Positions 21,041 to 22,231 of a stretch of 64,000 nt of DNA are shown here, one piece after another. Each line of letters opens with the position of its first letter. The stretch's first letter is position 1. A program made the position numbers and the translations under genes. This DNA is from Microvirga zambiensis WSM3693 (GTDB lineage: Bacteria > Pseudomonadota > Alphaproteobacteria > Rhizobiales > Beijerinckiaceae): NCBI RefSeq assembly GCF_016735695.1, contig NZ_JAERQD010000007.1, positions 62,001-126,000 on the forward strand. The letters are read 5' to 3'. The notes below the pieces were generated by a model that saw only the letters and a program-made list of their open reading frames with translations, was not told where the DNA came from and did not search any database.

Positions 21041-22231
21041 TTAATCGATGACTGCGGCGACGACGCCGGCGCCGACGGTGCGGCCGCCTTCACGGATGGC
21101 GAAGCGCAGCTTCTCCTCCATGGCGATCGGCGCGATCAGCTCGACTTCCATCGTGATGTTGTCGCCCGGCATCACCATCTCGGTGCCCTCGGGCAGCTTC
21201 ACCACGCCAGTCACGTCCGTCGTGCGGAAGTAGAACTGCGGACGGTAGTTGCCGAAGAACGGCGTATGACGGCCGCCCTCTTCCTTCGTCAGGATGTACG
21301 CCTCGGCCTTGAACTTCGTGTGCGGCTTGATCGAGCCCGGCTTGCACAGCACCTGGCCGCGCTCCACGTCCTCGCGCTTCGTGCCGCGCAGCAGAACGCC
21401 CACGTTGTCGCCCGCCTGGCCCTGGTCGAGCAGCTTGCGGAACATCTCGACGCCCGTCACCGTCGTCTTCTGTGTGTCGCGAAGACCCAAGATCTACACT
21501 TCCTCGCCGACCTTCACGATGCCGCGCTCGACGCGACCCGTCACCACCGTGCCGCGGCCCGAGATCGAGAACACGTCCTCGATCGGCATCAGGAACGGCT
21601 GGTCAACCGGACGCTCCGGCTGCGGGATGTAGCGGTCGACCTCGGCCATCAGCTCGAGCACGCGCTCGCGGCCGATCTCCGGCGAACGGTCTTCCAGCGC
21701 GCACAGGGCCGAGCCCTTCACGATCGGAATGTCGTCGCCGGGGAAATCGTACTTCGACAGAAGCTCGCGCACCTCGAGCTCGACCAGGTCGAGCAGCTCG
21801 GCGTCGTCGACCATGTCGACCTTGTTCATGAACACCACCAGCGCCGGAACGCCGACCTGGCGCGCCAGAAGGATGTGCTCGCGCGTCTGCGGCATCGGGC
21901 CGTCGGCCGACGACACCACCAGGATCGCGCCGTCCATCTGCGCCGCACCCGTGATCATGTTCTTCACATAATCGGCGTGCCCGGGGCAGTCGACGTGCGC
22001 GTAGTGGCGGTTCGTCGTCTCGTACTCGACGTGCGCCGTCGAGATCGTGATGCCGCGCGCCTTCTCTTCCGGCGCCTTGTCGATCTGGTCGTACGCCGTG
22101 AACGTCGCCCCGCCAGACTCCGCCAGAACCTTCGTGATCGCCGCCGTCAGAGACGTCTTGCCATGGTCCACGTGACCAATCGTCCCAATGTTGCAGTGCG
22201 GCTTATTCCGCTCAAACTTTTCCTTCGCCAT
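21041..22231 (-). pseudogene. tuf: Elongation factor Tu, copy 1, interrupted by an in-frame stop
   Basis: A 396-codon tuf gene at the classical position after fusA. Codons 1-245 are intact: G1 motif GHVDHGKTSL, DCPGHADY, and the G4 and G5 motifs are readable. Codon 246, GAG in the other copy, is TAG here (21494-21496), inside domain 2. The frame continues normally for 149 codons after the next codon. Compared with the copy at 41732-42922 I see only three substitutions in the gene body, all within 24 bp (21473, 21490, 21496): one nonsense, one Val to Leu (GTG to TTG), one silent. A few silent changes and a different stop occur in the last codons. No length change. EF-Tu supply could come from the second copy. 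A base-calling or assembly error in this near-identical pair is a real alternative. Confidence 0.85.

Follow-up and report, generated by a model that had tools for sequence, protein, structure and literature searches.

The str-operon copy of tuf, the gene for elongation factor EF-Tu, is interrupted by an in-frame TAG at codon 246 in the draft genome of Microvirga zambiensis WSM3693, and our comparison of tuf pairs points to this stop being, probably, an error of assembly or consensus calling within a near-identical repeat of 1.2 kb. The window analyzed here is a stretch of 64,000 nucleotides, bases 62001-126000 of contig C235 (189,598 bp), in a genome of 7.36 Mb and 257 contigs that carries the label G000 below. 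The minus-strand gene order is rpsL, rpsG, fusA, tuf, rpsJ, rplC, and rplD. The reading frame is broken in this str copy, whereas a second tuf, with tRNA-Trp downstream and tRNA-Gly and tRNA-Tyr upstream, is intact. The features considered are as follows.

21041-22231, minus strand: str-operon tuf with an in-frame TAG at codon 246 (base comparison, and Pfam on both resulting ORFs)
21473-21496, minus strand: private cluster of three base changes, T253T, V248L, and E246stop (pairwise and genus alignments)
21494-22231, minus strand: 245-residue ORF, GTPase domain plus the beginning of domain 2 (ORF list, Pfam)
21041-21490, minus strand: 149-residue ORF, predicted only, with a new TTG start and covering the remainder of domain 2 and domain 3 (ORF list, Pfam)
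41732-42922, minus strand: second tuf, intact, 396 residues, between tRNA genes (Pfam, base comparison)
22276-24351, minus strand: fusA (EF-G), the unique flank upstream of the str-operon tuf
20664-20972, minus strand: rpsJ (S10), the unique flank downstream of the str-operon tuf
20973-21040, minus strand: tuf-rpsJ spacer with a G+C-rich hairpin (folding of 20973-21044)

Compared base by base over 1191 bp each, the two tuf copies differ at six positions. Three of these are interior and lie within 24 bp of one another, as an earlier, sequence-only reading of this DNA had described: position 21473 is T in the str copy and C in the copy at 41732-42922 (codon 253 on the coding strand, ACA versus ACG, silent), position 21490 is A versus C (codon 248, TTG versus GTG, V to L), and position 21496 is A versus C (codon 246, TAG versus GAG, stop). 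The same reading held the copies to be alike throughout the tuf body apart from these three bases; this stands for the interior, where codons 1-392 are identical outside the cluster. Three further differences that it did not list (21042, 21044, and 21053) are found among the last 13 bases of the gene, stop codon included. These last codons (21041-21053 and 41732-41744) lie outside the homogenized tract, and codon 396 (GAT/GAC) and the stop codon (TAA/TGA) differ within several Microvirga pairs, that of G000 included. Random placement brings three sites within 24 bp of one another in 0.1% of draws, and the clustering of the interior changes is thus beyond chance for independent events.

The cluster is private to this one gene copy. 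In an alignment of 57 full-length Microvirga tuf copies, the str copy of G000 included, codons 246 and 248 encode E and V in all 56 other sequences, and gene position 759 is G in 49 copies, C in seven, and A in the str copy only. Since all three cluster bases are absent from the 56 other copies, the changes are derived in the str copy; two of the three are nonsynonymous, both at codons constant elsewhere in the alignment, and carry no trace of selection. An internal stop is found in just one of 66 listed Microvirga tuf matches (from 33 of 48 genus genomes), again the str copy of G000, and the deviant 19-base stretch occurs in one of the 48 genus genomes (one genome per species), namely, G000 itself.

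To place these changes in the context of other tuf pairs, we compared 28 pairs from the genus and 30 from elsewhere in the family, among the matches listed, sorted by contig number and with the stop codon excluded. A pair was obtained from 28 of the 33 matching genus genomes; G008, G011, G038, and G045 gave one match each, and G029, with four matches, some at contig ends, was omitted. Two of the four matches in G009 were used. Copies touch contig ends in G009, G012, G013, G023, G024, and G026, with one copy shortened in each of G012 and G026. The family search (248 genomes) gave at least 34 pairs outside the genus with both copies listed, of which 30 were compared; those omitted are from G134, G158, G188, and G245, in each of which the two copies are equal in bit score.

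Assemblies of 10 contigs or fewer provide 23 pairs, two with a nonsynonymous difference (94 synonymous and two nonsynonymous codons), and those of 11-49 contigs provide 17 pairs, none with such a difference (22 synonymous codons, zero nonsynonymous). At 50-199 contigs, one of 11 pairs has a nonsynonymous difference (30 synonymous codons, one nonsynonymous), and at 200 contigs or more, three of seven do (16 synonymous codons, 14 nonsynonymous). Below 50 contigs, then, 116 of 118 differing codons are synonymous (40 pairs, among the matches listed), against a computed expectation that 75.5% of random changes in tuf are nonsynonymous or stop, which argues that copy differences in the better assemblies have passed selection. 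Within the genus, nonsynonymous differences are found in zero of 15 pairs below 50 contigs versus four of 13 in more fragmented assemblies; the four are G000 (257 contigs), G001 (380), G005 (250), and G040 (60), the only genus drafts with such differences.

Private changes at invariant interior residues are likewise found in G001, G005, and G040, in one or both copies. The G001 copies (L035 and L075), which have 16 differences between them, are the most telling: one carries private changes M140K, V277M, and V279M at otherwise constant residues, and the private changes of the other at such residues include D143N, R155G, E156K, F163I, I170N, and S174W. Such damage to both EF-Tu genes would hardly be compatible with life, and the G001 changes are thus best read as errors; those in G000 are of the same kind. 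Counted by codons, the contrast between assemblies of ≥50 and <50 contigs gives a Fisher p of 2e-6, or 8e-6 without G000, in which case G001 alone accounts for 10 of the 13 nonsynonymous codons. Counted by pairs, however, it is weak (p 0.068, or 0.15 without G000). Against a reading as error, moreover, among the seven pairs at ≥200 contigs, four (G004, G007, G009, and G152) are free of nonsynonymous differences, and the near-complete assemblies G239 (A2G; four contigs) and G275 (M254T; two contigs), both of other genera, have one each. The contrast between tuf pairs of fragmented and better assemblies is not proof.

The state of the G000 assembly bears on the same question. A 16S search gave no match in G000, G001, G007, or G040, one in G005, four in G020, and five full-length matches in G014; it also missed five of 14 control genomes, so the G000 result is not absolute. 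Together, the 257 contigs and the lack of a 16S match suggest that long repeats are probably unresolved in G000. The tuf repeat, two near-identical copies of 1191 bp, is longer than ordinary short reads, and the cluster is set 432-455 bp into the gene from its rpsJ side and 735-758 bp from its fusA side, where it would be hard to reach by short read pairs anchored in the tuf flanks. The pattern would suit a short-read draft that lost its long repeats but still spanned the 1.2-kb tuf repeat. On this account, both tuf genes would be intact in the living bacterium; long repeats would have been left unresolved in the 257-contig draft, the interior of the str copy would have been filled in or polished from reads not anchored in fusA or rpsJ, and the three changes would be base-calling mistakes stemming from one or a few low-quality or misplaced reads. 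One report (PMC6733440) states that drafts with filled gaps may be unreliable. Speaking against such an error, both tuf copies are found on contig C235, which contains no N bases; the repeat was thus bridged by some of the data, and the assembler would have been helped by a real variant in mid-repeat. Among the options put forward by the sequence-only reading, an artefact in a repeated gene nonetheless emerges as the best supported, on the basis of the tuf-pair controls and the assembly state.

Within this error, a narrower and rather improbable variant is that adapter-bearing or misprimed reads shaped the consensus. The two nonsilent changes create an 11-base match, at plus-strand 21490-21500 (AGATCTACACT, a single occurrence on the 190-kb contig), to the Illumina P5/TruSeq oligo; of 20000 random two-change clusters, 13 match at least one of nine sequencing oligos over 11 bases. 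The idea is nevertheless post hoc, formed after the sequence had been seen, and the flanks of the match are native: when the oligo is overlaid on 58 positions, 30 bases of the str copy agree with it versus 27 of the intact copy. A 10-base match to P7 falls at the silent site in the intact copy and is absent from the str copy. We regard the 11-base P5 match as a small lead only. Adapter insertion was considered separately and rejected; a genome search allowing ≤3 mismatches gave zero matches to either the P5 oligo or one stretch of the TruSeq adapter, a result that also tells against the narrower variant.

A genuine and very recent nonsense cluster, produced by a single mutational event in a cell where the other copy supplies EF-Tu and repair by gene conversion is pending, appears unlikely on balance but deserves more weight. 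The intact second gene at 41732-42922 is in its favor, and three changes in 24 bp, a spacing reached in 0.1% of random draws, would suit a single event. Precedent comes from E. coli, in which, according to PMC1780047, either tufA or tufB can be deleted without loss of viability, one copy being left, and conversion keeps the copies alike. The internal stop, on the other hand, is confined to one of the 66 listed Microvirga matches, and no templated source is apparent: on contig C235 outside both tuf copies, searched on both strands, no match longer than 11 bases spans the changed bases. E. coli without tufA is given a relative fitness of 0.7 in PMC5574714, and a stop at codon 246 might in addition lower expression of the S10 operon. 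By analogy, a real null allele would be survivable but probably costly. This cost, the recurrence of private changes at invariant residues in drafts G001, G005, and G040, and the almost wholly synonymous nature of copy differences elsewhere all favor an error. None of the four tRNAs of the window reads TAG. A screen for broken genes, aligning C235 with the matching G020 region, recovered the tuf stop, but 38 of 187 coding-like alignments listed held a stop, and since antisense frames yield many false stops in G+C-rich DNA, the screen gives no clean count of other broken genes. A literature search, with most subscription journals outside its coverage, turned up no naturally occurring nonsense allele of tuf.

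By far the least probable reading is a split EF-Tu, in which translation would restart at the newly created TTG to give two chains that function together, one of the GTPase domain and one of domains 2-3. The elements named by the sequence-only reading are present: the ORF list includes the 245-residue fragment (21494-22231), which matches the GTPase domain only, and the 149-residue ORF (21041-21490) opens at a TTG two codons past the stop with GAGGAAG ahead of it. The downstream ORF, however, enters the 73-position Pfam domain 2 profile at position 24 and also holds domain 3; the break thus falls inside domain 2 and not between folded domains, a poor place for two chains. GAGGAAG is ordinary coding sequence, present in the intact copy too. 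Codon 248, which is V in the 56 other aligned copies, has changed as well, and, with an intact EF-Tu encoded elsewhere, nothing would keep a split one. The suggestion that a split EF-Tu is conceivable therefore finds no support, and it is exceedingly doubtful that the bacterium has been caught splitting EF-Tu, its str-operon tuf now encoding a predicted stand-alone GTPase-domain chain plus a re-initiated chain of domains 2-3, with an intact copy alongside and ahead of conversion.

Several features of the surrounding DNA were noted. The hairpin in 20973-21044 has a folding energy of -27.5 kcal/mol (z-score -2.24) and is without a T run accepted by the terminator scan. In 20600-22500, a promoter scan found no promoter-like sites and the three terminator-like sites called by the terminator scan all lie on the plus strand, which is uninformative on a separate S10 promoter. 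A 426-residue antisense ORF crosses the broken tuf on the plus strand (20990-22270), and the intact tuf has a 466-residue antisense counterpart at 41705-43105; antisense ORFs over tuf are probably a by-product of G+C-rich coding sequence.

If the stop is an error, as we think probable, it cautions that false stops and substitutions can occur in duplicated tuf genes of fragmented drafts, a concern because tuf is used as a marker gene. Should it instead be real, the str-operon tuf directly upstream of the S10 genes would have a naturally occurring null allele, with which polarity and repair by gene conversion could be tested directly. As in the E. coli tufA and tufB deletion mutants, one tuf is lost and the other intact; those are constructed deletions, however, whereas G000 presents a stop within a three-base cluster of an unverified draft. 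The closer likeness, under the preferred reading as error, would be to the probable consensus errors in repeats of the fragmented drafts G001, G005, and G040, with which G000 shares private, largely nonsynonymous changes at invariant interior tuf residues and from which it differs in that one of its changes makes a stop codon.
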